Shown here in pieces: positions 9,737 through 18,922 of a stretch of DNA of 36,230 bases. Within the stretch, counting starts at the first letter, position 1, and every line of letters starts with the position of its first letter. Position numbers and translations under genes: made by a program. The stretch is from positions 1-36,230 of the forward strand of contig CAMAYR010000019.1 in NCBI GenBank assembly GCA_945862355.1, given 5' to 3'. Source of the stretch: Devosia equisanguinis. GTDB lineage: Bacteria > Pseudomonadota > Alphaproteobacteria > Rhizobiales > Hyphomicrobiaceae. Under the pieces are notes generated by a model. That model worked only from the letters and a program-made list of their open reading frames with translations. It was not told where the DNA came from and did not search any database.

Positions 9737-10839
<1,103 letters not shown>

Positions 10840-10874
10840 GCCAATTGGACGACAACGCCGACCGAAGCGAACAT

Positions 10875-11795
10875 ATGGGACCGCTATCAACCGACCGATT
10901 TTCACGCCGCGACACAAGTCCGGGGAACGGCCGTGCGTTCTCGCTGCGGCTGCCGGCGCTGTTTTTCATGTCGTTCGCGCTGATCGTGCTGAGCCGGCTC
11001 GGTCACCCCGCCATCAGGGAATTGCGCGCGGAAGCTGAATTCTGGATTGCGCCGGCACTCGGCGCTGCGATGTTGCCGTTCGATCCAGCACGGCGCCTCG
11101 CACGCCAGGTGCAGTCGAGCTACGATGGCTTTGCCGAGCTGGAACTATTGCGGGGCGAGAACCTAAGGCTCAAGCAGTGGGAGAGCCGGTCGCGCGATCT
11201 CGAGCGAAAGTTCGGCGAGCTCGCCCATCTGGCCCGCACGCTCGAGCAGCAGAGCATCGACTATCGCACAGTGCGCGTGATCGCCACGTCGAGTGGTGCG
11301 TTCGTCAATTCCGCCCTCCTCGAAGCGGGCAGAGAGCACGGCGTTCTCGTCGGCCAGCCCGTGATCAACGCCAGCGGCTTGCTGGGCCGCATCGTCGAGG
11401 CGGGCAGCCGAACGTCTCGGCTGTTGCTGCTCACCGACGTCAACAGCCGGATCCCGGTGCTGGCGGGTAGCCATCAGGTTCGCGCCATTCTGGCTGGCGA
11501 CAATGGTGCAGAGCCGAGGCTGACGATGCTGCCGCAAGGAGCCGAGCTCGATCACGGAGAGGAAATCCTCACCTCGGGGATCGGCGGCATGTTCCCGCGC
11601 GGCCTTCGCGTGGGGCACGTGTCGCTGATGCCTAGTGGGCCGCGCGCCACGCTCAATGCCGATCTCGGTGACCTCGAATACGTGAGCATATTGATGTTCG
11701 AGAACCCCGGGGTCTCGCTGACGCGAGAGTTGCGGCAGCCGAACGATCCAGCTGCCAGGGTGCGTTCCCGCAGCGAGAGGGGAGGAAGCCCATGA
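10875..11795 (+). CDS. mreC: Rod shape-determining protein MreC
   Basis: N-terminal TM, coiled coil LRGENLRLKQWESRSRDLERKFGELAHL, VIATSSGAFVNSALLEAGREHGVLVGQPVINASGLLGRI; follows mreB. Confidence 0.9.
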   Translation: MGPLSTDRFSRRDTSPGNGRAFSLRLPALFFMSFALIVLSRLGHPAIRELRAEAEFWIAPALGAAMLPFDPARRLARQVQSSYDGFAELELLRGENLRLKQWESRSRDLERKFGELAHLARTLEQQSIDYRTVRVIATSSGAFVNSALLEAGREHGVLVGQPVINASGLLGRIVEAGSRTSRLLLLTDVNSRIPVLAGSHQVRAILAGDNGAEPRLTMLPQGAELDHGEEILTSGIGGMFPRGLRVGHVSLMPSGPRATLNADLGDLEYVSILMFENPGVSLTRELRQPNDPAARVRSRSERGGSP

Positions 11796-12301
11796 CGGTT
11801 TCCTCACGTATCGCTCCGCCTGCCCTGGTCGTTCTCGCAGTGATCGTCTGCGCGCTGCCGTGGAGCCCCACTGCGGAAATGCGGCTCGTTTTGCCGCTGC
11901 TGCCTTATGTCGTCATTCACCGCTGCGTCGAACGCTGGGGTGAGGCAACGCCGGACTGGCTGGTTTTCCTGGCGGGATTCGCGGCGGACGTCGCCGGGCA
12001 GGGACCGCTGGGCTACTGGTCGCTGATCTACTTGTGCGGATACACCATGATCCGTTCCGCAACGGCCGAGCGGCAACACAACGCGGCGACCCGGTTGTTG
12101 CTGTTCGTCGTCACGATCGTCAGCCTGGCAGCGATGCAGTGGTCGGTATCGTCGGTCTATTTTCTGCGGAGTGCGGAGATCAAGCCGCTCGCGGTAGCTG
12201 CTGGCGTTGCGTTCGCTGCATATGTCGTCGTGTCGATCGTCATTCCTGCCGGGTCAGGCGTACCGGCGCGCAGCAATACGCGGCTGCAGAGGGGCACTTG
12301 A
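11792..12301 (+). CDS. mreD: Rod shape-determining protein MreD
   Basis: Small polytopic membrane protein between mreC and mrdA; 4-bp overlap with mreC. Confidence 0.8.
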   Translation: MTVSSRIAPPALVVLAVIVCALPWSPTAEMRLVLPLLPYVVIHRCVERWGEATPDWLVFLAGFAADVAGQGPLGYWSLIYLCGYTMIRSATAERQHNAATRLLLFVVTIVSLAAMQWSVSSVYFLRSAEIKPLAVAAGVAFAAYVVVSIVIPAGSGVPARSNTRLQRGT

Positions 12302-14256
12302 TGGCACGCGAGCCTCTCCCCAGCGAGCCGGGTGCCCAAGATCGCCAGGAGCGCGTCGCCTTCACGCGGCGCGCTGCACTGATGGGGTTTGGCCAGGCCC
12401 TCGTGCTCGGCGCCCTGGGTTCTCGCCTCTACCAGCTGCAGGTGCTCGATTCGGGCCGCTACAGGCTACTGGCCGACGACAACCGGTTCAACGCAATTTC
12501 GCTCGCTCCGGTCCGCGGGCGCATTCTCGATCGCTTCGGTGTCGCGCTCGCCACCAACGAGGAGGCGTTTCGCGTCACGATCGTACCCGCTCTGGCTGGC
12601 GACATGGCCGCTGCGCTCGAAAAGCTATCCAGGATCGTCGACATCCCGCCCGCAGAACGCGCGCGTCTCATCGCGCGGGTGCGTCGCCAGCCTGCGCATC
12701 TTCCGGTGATCGTTGCGAACGATGTCAGCTTCGAGCAGGTAGCGACCATAAATCTGTTGGCCCCGGATCTGCCCGGCGTGGAGACGGAGACGTTCAGCCG
12801 ACGCATCCATCATCACACGCGTGTCGTTGGCCACATCGTCGGGCACGTGGGCGCGGTAGAGCGGTTCGGGCTCGGCGACGATCCGGTTCTACGAATCCCC
12901 GGAATGCGAATTGGGAGGGCGGGTCTCGAGCGCGGGATGGACAAAGCGCTGCGTGGCATCGGCGGTGTGGTTCGACGCGAGGTGGACGCGCGCGGCCGCA
13001 TCGTTCGCAATCTGGAGCGCACAGAGCCAAAGGCGGGCCGTGACATCGCGGCCACGATCGATCTGGAGCTGCAGTCGTGGCTCGTCGAGCGCGTCTCGCG
13101 TGAGCGCCGCGCGGCGGTCGTTGCGCTGGACGTTCGCGGTGGCGAGGTCGTCGCGATGGCGTCGTCGCCCGCCTACGATTCCATGCTCAATGCTCAGCAA
13201 CCTCCGGCCGCTGCACCAGAGCCACCGCGTGGCCGACGTCGCAGCCGGTCGTTGCGGACAGGCCATCGCTCGACACCGACGCGAGGGGACGCACTGTTCA
13301 ATCGCGCGACGGCCGGTCTTTATCCTCCAGGCTCGACGTTCAAGATCGTCACCGCGTTCGCCGCGCTCGAAGCCGGTGTCGTGGATCTGCGCGAACGGAT
13401 CGACTGTAAGGGGTCCTACACGCTCGCCGGGCATACGTTCCGGTGCTGGAATCGAGGCGGGCACGGTCGCTGTGACCTGCATCGCGCCATGCGCGAAAGC
13501 TGCGACGTATATTTCTACGAAGTCGCGCGGCGTATGGGAATCGAGGCGCTGTCCGCAATGGGCCAGCGGCTGGGTCTCGGGCAGATTTACGAGGCGGGCT
13601 TCGCGCCGCTCGCGTCCGGCATCATGCCGACACCAGCCTGGAAACGCGGCAAGCTCGGCCGAAACTGGCTCGGCGGCGAGACCATTCTGGCCGGCATCGG
13701 GCAAGGCTACGTGCTGACCTCGCCCTTGCAACTCGCGGTGATGACGGCACGTGCGGCAACCGGCTACGCCGTCACACCAACTCTGGTTCTACCGGAACGG
13801 GGCCGCTTGCCGCCGTCTTTTCCATCACTCGGCATCAACGATCGGCACCTGAAAGCCGTGCAACGGGCGCTGCGCGCAGTCGTCGAAGAACCCGGTGGAA
13901 CTGGATCGCGCGCCAGCATGGCGGATCTCGGGATCGAGGTCGCCGGCAAGACGGGAACGTCGCAAGTGAGCCGCCGTTCCGCGGGCCGCTATATCGGCAG
14001 CCTGCGCTGGGAGGATCGAGATCACGCATTGTTCGTGGGTTATTTCCCTGCTGCCGCGCCACGCTATGCGGTAGCGGCCGTGATCGAACATGCCGGCGGC
14101 GGCGGCACTGTCGCTGCGCCGCTCGTGCGCGAGGTGATGGCGGAACTCGTCACGCGCGATCCCCTGCGGAAGCCGGCTTTCTCGGTCAGCTTTCCCGAGC
14201 CGGATAGCGCTCCAGCGTCAGCACACTCCCGCAACAGGAGGTCGCCGCCGACATGA
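12301..14256 (+). CDS. mrdA: Penicillin-binding protein 2
   Basis: PVRGRILDRFGVALATNEEAFRVTIVPA, YPPGSTFKIVTAFAALE (SxxK), AGKTGTSQVS (KTG). Confidence 0.93.
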   Translation: MAREPLPSEPGAQDRQERVAFTRRAALMGFGQALVLGALGSRLYQLQVLDSGRYRLLADDNRFNAISLAPVRGRILDRFGVALATNEEAFRVTIVPALAGDMAAALEKLSRIVDIPPAERARLIARVRRQPAHLPVIVANDVSFEQVATINLLAPDLPGVETETFSRRIHHHTRVVGHIVGHVGAVERFGLGDDPVLRIPGMRIGRAGLERGMDKALRGIGGVVRREVDARGRIVRNLERTEPKAGRDIAATIDLELQSWLVERVSRERRAAVVALDVRGGEVVAMASSPAYDSMLNAQQPPAAAPEPPRGRRRSRSLRTGHRSTPTRGDALFNRATAGLYPPGSTFKIVTAFAALEAGVVDLRERIDCKGSYTLAGHTFRCWNRGGHGRCDLHRAMRESCDVYFYEVARRMGIEALSAMGQRLGLGQIYEAGFAPLASGIMPTPAWKRGKLGRNWLGGETILAGIGQGYVLTSPLQLAVMTARAATGYAVTPTLVLPERGRLPPSFPSLGINDRHLKAVQRALRAVVEEPGGTGSRASMADLGIEVAGKTGTSQVSRRSAGRYIGSLRWEDRDHALFVGYFPAAAPRYAVAAVIEHAGGGGTVAAPLVREVMAELVTRDPLRKPAFSVSFPEPDSAPASAHSRNRRSPPT

Positions 14257-15377
14257 CCAGTACTGGCGTCTTTCATCGGCCGCCACCGAACATCATCGAC
14301 AAGCTCGGTGCCCTCAATTGGCTGCTGCTCATTGCGCTGTGCGCGGTGACCGCGGTCGGCCTCGCGGCACTATATTCGGTTGCGGGCGGCTCGTGGTCAC
14401 CGTGGGCGGAGCGTCATGCCCTACGCTTCCTGGTCGGGCTCGCGGTGCTGATTGCAATGGCGGTCGTGCCGCTCGCGTTCTGGATGCAGCTCGCCTATCC
14501 CGCCTATGCTGTCGCATTGGGGGCACTCGCTCTGGTGCCTCTGGTCGGAACCGAGGCGCTCGGCGCACGGCGTTGGCTGCCGATCGGACCGCTGAGCTTC
14601 CAGCCTTCGGAAATGATGAAGGTAGCGCTCGTCATGGCGCTCGCCCGCTATTGTCACGGGCTCACACCCGGGCAACTCTCGAATCCGCTGCGGCTTGTCA
14701 TCCCGGCTGCCATGATCGCAGCACCGATGCTGCTGATCGCGCGCCAGCCCGACCTCGGTACGGCACTGATGATCAGCATGGTCGGCGCAGGCACGCTGCT
14801 GATTGCTGGTGTCCACATCGCCTATTTCGCGGTCGGCGGCGCGGCGATAGCGGGGGGCATTCCGCTCGCGCTGCCGTATCTGCACGACTACCAGCGGCGG
14901 CGCATCGAGGTGTTTCTAGATCCATCCGCAGACCCGCTGGGGGCGGGCTATCACGTGACGCAATCCAAGATCGCGATGGGATCGGGAGGATTTGGCGGTA
15001 AAGGCTATCTCGCAGGTACACAAAGCCAGCTCGATTTCCTGCCCGAGAAGCATACCGACTTCATCTTCACGACGATCGGAGAGGAGTGGGGCTTAATCGG
15101 CGCCGTCGTCGTTCTGCTGCTGATCGGGTTCGTGCTCGCTGTGCTTCTCGGCATGGCGTTCGCCGTGTCGAGCAGGGCCGGCCGGCTGCTGATCTGCGGC
15201 TCCGCGCTGACGCTGTTCCTGCATGCGGCGGTCAATATCGGCATGGTCACTGGCAGCCTGCCGGTGGTCGGCATCCCGCTGCCATTCATCTCATATGGCG
15301 GGACCTCTCTGACGATGCTCATGATCGGGATGGGCTTGAGCATGTGCGCTTGGGTGCACCGCGGCGAGAAGATGTAG
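14253..15377 (+). CDS. rodA: Rod shape-determining protein RodA (SEDS family)
   Basis: GARRWLPIGPLSFQPSEMMKVALVMALARY, LDFLPEKHTDFIFTTIGEEWGLIGA, LPFISYGGTSLTMLMIGMGL. Confidence 0.95.
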   Translation: MTSTGVFHRPPPNIIDKLGALNWLLLIALCAVTAVGLAALYSVAGGSWSPWAERHALRFLVGLAVLIAMAVVPLAFWMQLAYPAYAVALGALALVPLVGTEALGARRWLPIGPLSFQPSEMMKVALVMALARYCHGLTPGQLSNPLRLVIPAAMIAAPMLLIARQPDLGTALMISMVGAGTLLIAGVHIAYFAVGGAAIAGGIPLALPYLHDYQRRRIEVFLDPSADPLGAGYHVTQSKIAMGSGGFGGKGYLAGTQSQLDFLPEKHTDFIFTTIGEEWGLIGAVVVLLLIGFVLAVLLGMAFAVSSRAGRLLICGSALTLFLHAAVNIGMVTGSLPVVGIPLPFISYGGTSLTMLMIGMGLSMCAWVHRGEKM

Positions 15378-16178: not shown

Positions 16179-17078
16179 ATGCCGCTTCAGGAACGCGCCG
16201 CAATCTTGTCCGAGCTCACACCCGGGCACACGATAGCCGAGCCCGGCGAACAGCTCGTGCCGTTCGTATTCTGCTCGCCGCATTCCGGCCGCGTGTACCC
16301 CCGCGTGCTGCAGGAGGCCTCGCGGCTCAGCGCACATGCGTTGCGGAAATCCGAGGATTGCTTCGTCGACGAGCTTTTTGCCTGCGTTCCGACGCTTGGC
16401 GCACCGTTGATCTCGGCTCTGTTTCCCCGCGCCTATATCGACGTAAACCGCGAGCCGTTCGAGCTCGATCCGGTGTTGTTCGGCACCCAACTGCCATCCT
16501 ACGCCAACAGCCAATCCGTCCGCGTGTCAGGTGGCCTCGGCACGATCGCGCGCATCGTCGCCGACGGGGAGGAGATCTATCACACCCCGCCGACGATCCC
16601 GGCAGCGATGGAGCGGATCGAGAGGCTGTACCGCCCGTTCCATTCCGATCTTGCCGACCTTTTGGAGAGAACGCGGGCCCGGTTCGGTCAGGCCGTACTC
16701 ATCGACTGTCATTCCATGCCGTCGGCGGCGATGAACCAGACTAGCGGCGGTCGCCCCGACATCGTGCTGGGTGATCGATTCGGCTCGGCTTGCGATCCCC
16801 GGCTCACCCGCATCGTGCGCGATCAACTCGGGCGGTTAGGCTACCATGTCCAGCTCAACCGCCCCTATGCCGGCGGTTTCATCACGGAGCACTATGGCCG
16901 ACCCAACACAGGGTGCCACGCGTTGCAGATCGAGCTAAACCGTGCGCTCTACGTCGACGAAACTACGTTGCAGCCGACAAAGCGGTTCGTTCGACTACAT
17001 GCAGATCTGCTGACGGTAATCCGACGCATATTCGCCGAGTTCGCAGCGGACGCGGAGCTGCGGGCGGCGGCAGAGTAA
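16179..17078 (+). CDS. N-formylglutamate amidohydrolase family protein
   Basis: VFCSPHSGRVYP, YIDVNREPFELDPVLF, VLIDCHSMPS, GGFITEHYGRPNTGCHALQIELNRALY. Confidence 0.9.
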   Translation: MPLQERAAILSELTPGHTIAEPGEQLVPFVFCSPHSGRVYPRVLQEASRLSAHALRKSEDCFVDELFACVPTLGAPLISALFPRAYIDVNREPFELDPVLFGTQLPSYANSQSVRVSGGLGTIARIVADGEEIYHTPPTIPAAMERIERLYRPFHSDLADLLERTRARFGQAVLIDCHSMPSAAMNQTSGGRPDIVLGDRFGSACDPRLTRIVRDQLGRLGYHVQLNRPYAGGFITEHYGRPNTGCHALQIELNRALYVDETTLQPTKRFVRLHADLLTVIRRIFAEFAADAELRAAAE

Positions 17079-17115
17079 GCTGTGCCGAACGAACCGCGGT
17101 GTCGTCATGCGCCAG

Positions 17116-17197
17116 AAAAAAAGAAAGCCGCCTTTGAGGGCGGCTGAAGTCTAGGGAGGAAACGCCCAGAGTGGGCACAAGCCGCGACGAGGTCGCC
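17116..17197 (-). ncRNA. MmgR/suhB (alpha-r8)-like sRNA, copy 1 (5' end estimated)
   Basis: Minus strand: GCGAC-ctc-GTCGC hairpin, GCCCA-ctc-TGGGC hairpin, GTTTCCTCCCTAGACTT, terminator GCCGCC-ctcaaa-GGCGGC followed by TTTCTTTTTTT. Confidence 0.8.
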
Positions 17198-17365
17198 TGC
17201 TCGCCTCCTAGATGTATGTTGCGATGCAGCGGCTTTCAATAGCACGTTTCGCCTCAGACCACTTGTCGCAACGTGACGGGCCGCCGCAGTACCTTGCAAT
17301 CCGGACTGCATAATCCAAGGCCGCGGCACCAATCCAGGCCTCGCCGAGCATCAAATATCAACTAG

Positions 17366-17498
17366 TGAGGCGTCGCGCCTTAGTTGACCGACGGTGCGGC
17401 GAGGGTGGTGTCAACGAAGGCGCGAGGCCTCACTAAGACCTTGTTATTCCTAGTGGCCTCATGTCACGGCTAAATCGGACGGCGCTACGGGCCACGAG
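17366..17498. repeat. Two-hairpin intergenic repeat, copy B
   Basis: TGAGGCGTCGCGCCTTAGTTGACCGACGGTGCGGCGAGG...GTCAACGAAGGCGCGAGGCCTCA, then CTAGTGGCC...GGGCCACGAG; similar to 4267-4430. Confidence 0.85.
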
Positions 17499-17517
17499 CA
17501 ACTCTCAGGCAGTGCGC

Positions 17518-17612
17518 GAAAAAGAAAAGGGGCCGGTCGGGGATACCGATCGGCCCAAGTCTAGGGAGGAAACGCCCAAGGAGGGCACGACAGACGAGGG
17601 AGGCTCGTCAAT
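17518..17612 (-). ncRNA. MmgR/suhB (alpha-r8)-like sRNA, copy 2 (5' end estimated)
   Basis: Minus strand: GACGAG-cctcc-CTCGTC hairpin, GCCC-tcctt-GGGC hairpin, GTTTCCTCCCTAGACTT, terminator stem GGGCCGATCGG/CCGACCGGCCC then TTTTCTTTTT. Confidence 0.8.
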
Positions 17613-17860
17613 GTCGCAATGCAAAAACTAACGATGCAGTGCAGCATTGGCAAGCTAAAAATGCGCAGATCGAGCCCCTGAGCCATGCAAAATCGTATGC
17701 GGCATAGCCGCATCGGGAGTTGGCAAACCGGTGCTCCCGTTGCAGCCGCTGGATCTAGACCTCGGTTCAGTTTAGCGGCCAGGTCGCTGCTGAAGTCGGC
17801 CCAACTCAAGGCACTTGCATGGAGGCATGAAATTCACGCCCTTGGAAGGCGTCGGGCAAG

Positions 17861-17943
17861 AAAAAAGGGCCGTAGAAACGGCCCCAAGTCTAGGGAGGAA
17901 ACGCCCAAGCAGGGCGACGTTCTGCCAAAGGGGAACTTTGGCG
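17861..17943 (-). ncRNA. MmgR/suhB (alpha-r8)-like sRNA, copy 3 (5' end estimated)
   Basis: Minus strand: CCAAAG-ttccc-CTTTGG hairpin, GCCC-tgctt-GGGC hairpin, GTTTCCTCCCTAGACTT, terminator GGGGCCGT-ttct-ACGGCCC then TTTTTTCTT. Confidence 0.82.
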
Positions 17944-18115
17944 TCACACGATTCATATGTTGGTGTTCGCTCGTGCCAGCAAGGTGAAGTGTCTGATTTA
18001 CGTCAACTGGATTCTACAACTGATGCAGTTCTGATACAGTGCAGCAATCGGCCGTGGTCGATCCGACCTGAATGCCTGACCTAAAGTCTTTTGCGGCTCG
18101 AGGAGGAACCCAAAA

Positions 18116-18922
18116 TTGGCCAGAAACACCGCCCCGTCAGCCGCAACACTCCTCGCGTTCGCCCACGAGTTGGCCGATGCTGCGGGTGCTGAGATACTCC
18201 CGCACTTCCGGCGTCGCCTAGTGGTCGACAACAAGGCGAGCGACGGCGGATACGACCCTGTCACCGCGGCAGACCGGGCCGCGGAGCGCGTTGTGCGCGA
18301 CCTCGTTCGCGCGCGCTTTCCTGAGCATGGCTTCGAGGGCGAGGAGTATGGCGACGAGGCCCTCGAGCAGCCCTGGCGCTGGGTCGTCGATCCGATCGAC
18401 GGTACCAGGGCCTTCGTTCTCGGATTGCCGATATGGGGAACGTTGATCGGCCTGACCCACGAAGGCTCACCCGTTCTCGGCATGATGGATCAGCCGTTCA
18501 CCCGTGAGCGGTTCTGGGCCGACACTCGCGAGGCGTGGCTACGCGACCCGGAAGGTACGCACGTCCGACTGCAGACCCGCGAAGCACCCGACCTTGCCCA
18601 GTCGATGATGACGACGACGCATCCAGACCTGTTCGCGCCGGGCGATGAACGTCTGGCATTCGAGCGAATCAAGGCGACAGTGCGGGCCTGCCGATACGGC
18701 GGCGACTGCTACACCTACTGCCTGCTGGCAGCCGGCCACATCGACCTCATCGTGGAAGCCGGCCTCAAACCCTACGACATCACTGCGCTGGTGCCGATCA
18801 TCGAGCGGGCAGGCGGCGTCGTCACGACCTGGACCGGCGAGCCTGCATCGCGAGGCGGACGCATCATCGCCGCCGGCGACCGGCGGTTACATGCCGAAGC
18901 ACTGCGAGTGCTGGCGGCCTGA
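18116..18922 (+). CDS. hisN: Inositol monophosphatase family protein (histidinol-phosphatase HisN-like)
   Basis: DPVTAADRAAERVVRDLVRARFPEHGFEGEEYG, WVVDPIDGTRAFVLGLPIWGTLIGL, YGGDCYTYCLLAAGHIDLIVEAGLKPYDITALVPIIERAGG. TTG start. Confidence 0.85.
   Translation: MARNTAPSAATLLAFAHELADAAGAEILPHFRRRLVVDNKASDGGYDPVTAADRAAERVVRDLVRARFPEHGFEGEEYGDEALEQPWRWVVDPIDGTRAFVLGLPIWGTLIGLTHEGSPVLGMMDQPFTRERFWADTREAWLRDPEGTHVRLQTREAPDLAQSMMTTTHPDLFAPGDERLAFERIKATVRACRYGGDCYTYCLLAAGHIDLIVEAGLKPYDITALVPIIERAGGVVTTWTGEPASRGGRIIAAGDRRLHAEALRVLAA

Follow-up and report, generated by a model that had tools for sequence, protein, structure and literature searches.

Why bacteria keep several sRNAs that share one seed is an open question, alpha-r8 sRNAs included (2025 Caulobacter paper, PMC12559287), and it is raised here by three sRNA genes lying in tandem on the minus strand of the window (the whole stretch of DNA analysed, 36,230 nucleotides of Devosia equisanguinis contig CAMAYR010000019.1). 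As the copies are adjacent and carry position-specific, conserved promoter classes, dosage and split input can be tested directly against each other at this locus. The copies are probably Hfq-dependent anti-Shine-Dalgarno sRNAs that have one seed in common but are under divided transcriptional control, with copies 2 and 3 linked to PHB via PhaR and copy 1 not. What is new here is the promoters; the sRNA family and adjacent copies are already known (PMC12559287 describes multiple and adjacent alpha-r8 copies), and the conserved split in promoter class was not found in the alpha-r8 papers covered, with evolutionary work on tandem copies taken second-hand.

The three genes form a real array and belong to an established sRNA family, RF00519 (Rfam suhB, now named for MmgR; alpha-r8), flanked by two protein-coding genes:

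17852–17946, minus strand: alpha-r8 sRNA gene copy 1, first in transcription order, on the IMPase side (Rfam match 17922–17852; 5′ stem 17942–17924; 5′ end an estimate based on promoter and stem)
17515–17612, minus strand: alpha-r8 sRNA gene copy 2 (Rfam match 17593–17515; 5′ stem 17609–17593)
17111–17200, minus strand: alpha-r8 sRNA gene copy 3, on the FGase side (Rfam match 17183–17111; 5′ stem 17196–17184)
17886–17907, minus strand: invariant seed/anti-Shine-Dalgarno core of copy 1, exact 22-mer
17557–17578, minus strand: the same core in copy 2, exact 22-mer
17147–17168, minus strand: the same core in copy 3, exact 22-mer
16179–17078, plus strand: N-formylglutamate amidohydrolase (FGase), convergent neighbour (PF05013, E 8.4e-76)
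18116–18922, plus strand: inositol monophosphatase family protein (IMPase), divergent neighbour, start codon uncertain (PF00459, E 2e-52)

The first-pass annotation had described three minus-strand copies of a 22-mer and proposed a suhB/MmgR identity, both of which hold. The 22-mer is exact at 17147, 17557 and 17886 (AAGTCTAGGGAGGAAACGCCCA on the plus strand, TGGGCGTTTCCTCCCTAGACTT on the minus strand), with no further site at up to three mismatches (shuffle expectation 0.00), and the 10-mer UUUCCUCCCU, the alpha-r8 single-stranded element, is likewise exact in all three copies. RF00519, the best-matching Rfam family for all three loci, covers model positions 1–77 of 77 in each, at 64.8 (copy 1; E 2.5e-11), 62.5 (copy 2) and 62.7 bits (copy 3), far over the gathering cut-off of 41, and has no match beyond these in the genome and window. 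A scan of the array against Rfam at a relaxed threshold for a second RNA family gave chance-level matches only. The inositol-phosphatase gene adjoins the array, but the RNAs are divergent from it, convergent with FGase, and lie outside the IMPase leader. The nearest named relatives of the array FGase are from Hyphomicrobium and Hyphomicrobiaceae MAGs (~63% identity), which makes Hyphomicrobiaceae the most likely origin of the window. Elsewhere in the window, a kinase/pyrophosphorylase family gene (PF03618; 18956–19993) adjoins the inositol phosphatase, and 10434–15377 carries cell-shape genes in a single orientation (MreC, a penicillin-binding protein 2 type transpeptidase and a RodA/FtsW protein).

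The Rfam alignment of every copy contains a GCCC/GGGC hairpin followed by a terminator (GC-rich stem plus U-run in all three), and the 5′ stems are GCCAAAG..CTTTGGC (17924–17942), GACGAG..CTCGTC (17593–17609) and GCGAC..GTCGC (17184–17196). The annotated architecture (5′ hairpin, GCCC hairpin, open core, terminator) is thus present element by element in each copy, but its fold is less clear in copy 3: copies 1 and 2 clearly beat shuffled sequences (z −3.6 and −4.2) and also show the GCCC/GGGC hairpin before the 10-mer when folded, whereas copy 3 reaches −2.5 and its GCCC hairpin has a competing fold that partly covers the core. Covariation had been called strong within the locus, which was an overstatement because three paralogues alone cannot demonstrate it; the support comes instead from relatives, where compensatory changes occur in 8 of 13 RNAalifold pairs of the family alignment, every one of them in the terminator. 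The 5′ stem is conserved across relatives as a structure while its sequence changes (mean z −2.8 in 28 first, −3.2 in 29 second and −2.1 in 7 third copies), and an alignment of 77 relatives' copies shows no change in the core columns but a variable 5′ part and terminator stem, bearing out the picture of a fixed seed with drifting outer stems. As the GCCC hairpin is nearly invariant, covariation says nothing about it. RNAalifold paired the invariant GGG with the core CCC. Given that Rfam has GCCC opposite GGGC, this pairing is regarded as spurious, a product of columns that do not vary and loops that differ in length.

RF00519 matches over the cut-off were found in 49 of 60 relatives, among which Hyphomicrobiaceae usually carry two or three tandem copies between FGase and IMPase, the FGase-sRNA-IMPase block being kept in almost all loci of that family. 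Eighty loci found through FGase gave a matching distribution: most Hyphomicrobiales outside Hyphomicrobiaceae have one copy, likewise placed, and the loci with two or three copies (L091–L095) belong to Hyphomicrobium or Hyphomicrobiaceae MAGs. The tandem state is therefore ordinary for Hyphomicrobiaceae and not special to this locus. Copy number also shifts within the genus, one genome (G001) having the equivalents of copies 2 and 3 and another (G002) those of copies 1 and 2; third copies occur in a minority of genomes only. At L057, L059 and L079, copies lie away from both FGase and IMPase. Genome G057 carries RF00519 matches that lack the canonical core (L087, 2007–2307; L088, 1864–1942), having TTCCCCTCTGGAGGTTTTTG in its place and, upstream of it, a conserved TTTTCCTCCCAGT; these may represent a separate but related sRNA. 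Copies 2 and 3 of the window are separated by a spacer that contains a 26-nt inverted repeat (17363–17388/17410–17435; 92% complementary, 21-nt loop), possibly a REP- or MITE-like element.

The copies differ in what lies upstream of them. PhaR (AniA) is a repressor titrated off by PHB granules and recognises a palindrome with the core YGCRNYGCR; in S. meliloti, EMSA shows it bound near the mmgR start site, with the shift lost once the site is mutated (PMC12542648). Searching with this published core gave three putative operators in the array:

17635–17643, minus strand: putative PhaR-type operator core TGCACTGCA, distal, copy 2 (YGCRNYGCR at −50)
17615–17623, minus strand: putative PhaR-type operator core TGCATTGCG, the proximal one of copy 2, spaced 20 bp from its distal partner (YGCRNYGCR at −30)
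17220–17228, minus strand: putative PhaR-type operator core TGCATCGCA, copy 3, within the −35/−10 spacer (YGCRNYGCR at −45)

The genome encodes both PhaR (PF07879) and a PHB synthase (PF07167). Upstream of copy 1, YGCRNYGCR is absent from 300 nt, and a one-mismatch core, TGCACTGTA, is found farther upstream only. It lies in a segment (18033–18046) identical at 13 of 14 nt to the copy 2 distal operator region (17633–17646), and may be an operator relic or due to chance.

The same contrast is found in relatives. Within 95 nt upstream, 56 of 95 relatives' copies have YGCRNYGCR, vs 13.1 ± 3.5 in dinucleotide shuffles, with positions peaking near −50 and −30, 20 bp apart, and of 60 named single-copy loci 54 carry the core just upstream, the exceptions including the Brucella loci. 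In Hyphomicrobiaceae arrays it accompanies 34 of 35 later copies vs 2 of 29 first copies, and one of these two exceptions is explained by G001, whose array lacks copy 1 and whose ‘first’ copy is the equivalent of copy 2. The third copy of G031 has lost its operator. In G022, where copies are dispersed, the operator is missing from the IMPase-adjacent copy and present twice at another. The p-value of the first/later contrast (1e-14) overstates independent support because the genomes are related and the arrangement inherited; on the sequence comparison, the contrast is to be read as one arrangement maintained across many genera, not as dozens of independent events.

First copies have a promoter class of their own, TTGc-N7-gCGAAcA-N2-gc-CATA, which all but a few of 31 sequences carry at about −60 relative to the Rfam start. 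In most of 28 first copies a palindrome, TGTkGC-N6-GCmaCA (14.9 bits of information vs ~10 in shuffles), starts 54–57 nt before the TTG. In the window the corresponding features are:

17954–17982, minus strand: predicted promoter of copy 1, first-copy class, TTGCTGGCACGAGCGAACACCAACATATG (TTGc-N7-gCGAAcA..c.CATA motif)
18021–18038, minus strand: upstream box of copy 1, TGTATCAGAACTGCATCA, which matches TGTkGC-N6-GCmaCA only weakly (most first copies have the box in phase with the −35 element)

That the box is held in fixed phase with the sRNA promoter speaks for a role in expression of the sRNA rather than of IMPase. Exact scans for the box in ten genomes gave counts no higher than those of the reversed pattern, so neither a regulon nor a transcription factor can be named from it. 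Four candidates were considered on the form of their sites and not adopted: CRP/FNR (spacing differs), NifA (TGT-N10-ACA, again with different spacing), sigma-54 (the box lacks a conserved GG 10 nt upstream of GC) and NtrC (half-sites in opposite order). The suggestion that the copies might be separately regulated or additive can accordingly be sharpened towards separate control, with predicted PhaR operators at copies 2 and 3 and none at copy 1.

This arrangement bears on whether the array is simply a matter of dosage, that is, equivalent, co-regulated sRNAs whose number only raises total seed. The 22-nt core identical in all three copies would fit, as would the retention of copies 2 and 3 in G001 and of 1 and 2 in G002, which is what interchangeable copies should show; set against promoter classes that are position-specific and conserved over many genera, with first copies lacking PhaR operators and having their own promoter, dosage appears an unlikely account. 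Less likely again is that one or more copies are decaying, functionless duplicates: copy 3 folds less clearly, third copies are in the minority and that of G031 is without an operator, but in every copy of the window the core is exact, the 5′ stem and U-tailed terminator are kept, and the upstream region resembles a promoter of its class. That the minus-strand RNAs act mainly in cis, by antisense or readthrough control of FGase or the inositol phosphatase, is very improbable despite the conserved block and a family name that originally reflected a location opposite suhB (PMC2873474), as each copy terminates before FGase, mapped RNAs overlap no flanking gene, copies at L057, L059 and L079 are distant from both genes, and the Caulobacter siblings work in trans (PMC12559287).

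The shared seed offers a route to candidate targets. The seed complement placed before a start codon, GGGAGGAAA-N2-10-ATG, occurs at 14 distinct sites in the genome and the reversed pattern at none. Eight of these 14 genes exceed Pfam cut-offs for solute-binding proteins (SBPs; TctC, DctP, NMT1) and three more resemble SBPs, while only 2 of 14 tested control genes with other strong Shine-Dalgarno sequences are solute-binding; the control patterns are partly uninformative, many of their matches falling inside genes. In a second genome (G008), 8 of 11 seed-complement genes encode SBPs, of five SBP families. Fisher's test gives p 0.046 in this genome, 0.006 with G008 and 0.02 with five genomes pooled, on few genes and few controls and with gene starts and some SBP assignments made within this analysis. 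TctC accounts for 5 of the 14 genes vs ~2% of genes, taking an estimated gene total of ~4900. For its 5 Mb, the genome as a whole is rich in TctC-type solute-binding receptors, with ~100 of them (111 matches at E <= 0.001). The target prediction thus favours SBP genes here and in G008, but not in G009, G012 and G023, where SBPs make up 0 of 5 seed-complement genes. SBP mRNAs as targets are a lead, consistent with the repression of transporters by Caulobacter SisA, and not a demonstrated regulon.

Under split control, the array would give three paralogous trans-acting sRNAs, probably Hfq-dependent, each transcribed from its own minus-strand promoter and ending at its own intrinsic terminator. 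Their common unpaired seed, GUUUCCUCCCUAG, would pair with Shine-Dalgarno regions and repress translation. The input would be split and the output kept: the PHB sensor PhaR/AniA would keep copies 2 and 3 repressed until PHB granules titrate it away, and copy 1, with its different conserved promoter, would be expressed independently of PHB, probably through an activator. The targets probably include mRNAs of periplasmic SBPs, in which case the sRNAs would curb nutrient uptake when stored carbon is present. The promoter classes suggest that the copies may signal different nutritional states to one set of target genes. More tentatively, and on balance doubtful as a complete description, the Hyphomicrobiaceae array could be a small logic device in which one seed and regulon are served by two independent sensors that jointly set the repression of SBP-dependent uptake: the FGase-side copies would follow PHB state via PhaR, and the IMPase-side copy a second activator acting via TGTkGC-N6-GCmaCA. 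Split control of the array would also link a predicted uptake regulator, by way of the known sensor PhaR, to carbon storage.

The closest known system is MmgR (SmelC689, alpha-r8) of Sinorhizobium meliloti, which has the same Rfam family, seed and PhaR-type operator at its promoter (PMC12542648), but is a single copy and, unlike the array, has no PhaR-free sibling; its known link is to PHB accumulation, and a direct target was not found in the sources covered. SisA-D of Caulobacter crescentus are of the same family and are siblings with the same 10-nt seed, and SisA, which lies downstream of FGase much as the array adjoins FGase, uses this 10-mer for pairing on Hfq and represses genes for transporters (PMC12559287). 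SisA-D are dispersed, with unrelated promoters that have no common motif, whereas the copies here are in tandem and two of their promoters share a predicted PhaR operator. AbcR1/AbcR2 (ar15) of S. meliloti are likewise sibling sRNAs in tandem that act as anti-Shine-Dalgarno RNAs on mRNAs of transporters and are partly suhB-homologous (PMC7143759), but belong to a different family; the ar15 model (RF02345) has no matches in this genome and gave none in control genomes either. OmrA/OmrB and Qrr (discussed in PMC12559287) are also multicopy sRNAs with a shared pairing region, but they are unrelated in sequence and their siblings are co-regulated, whereas control of the array copies appears to be split.
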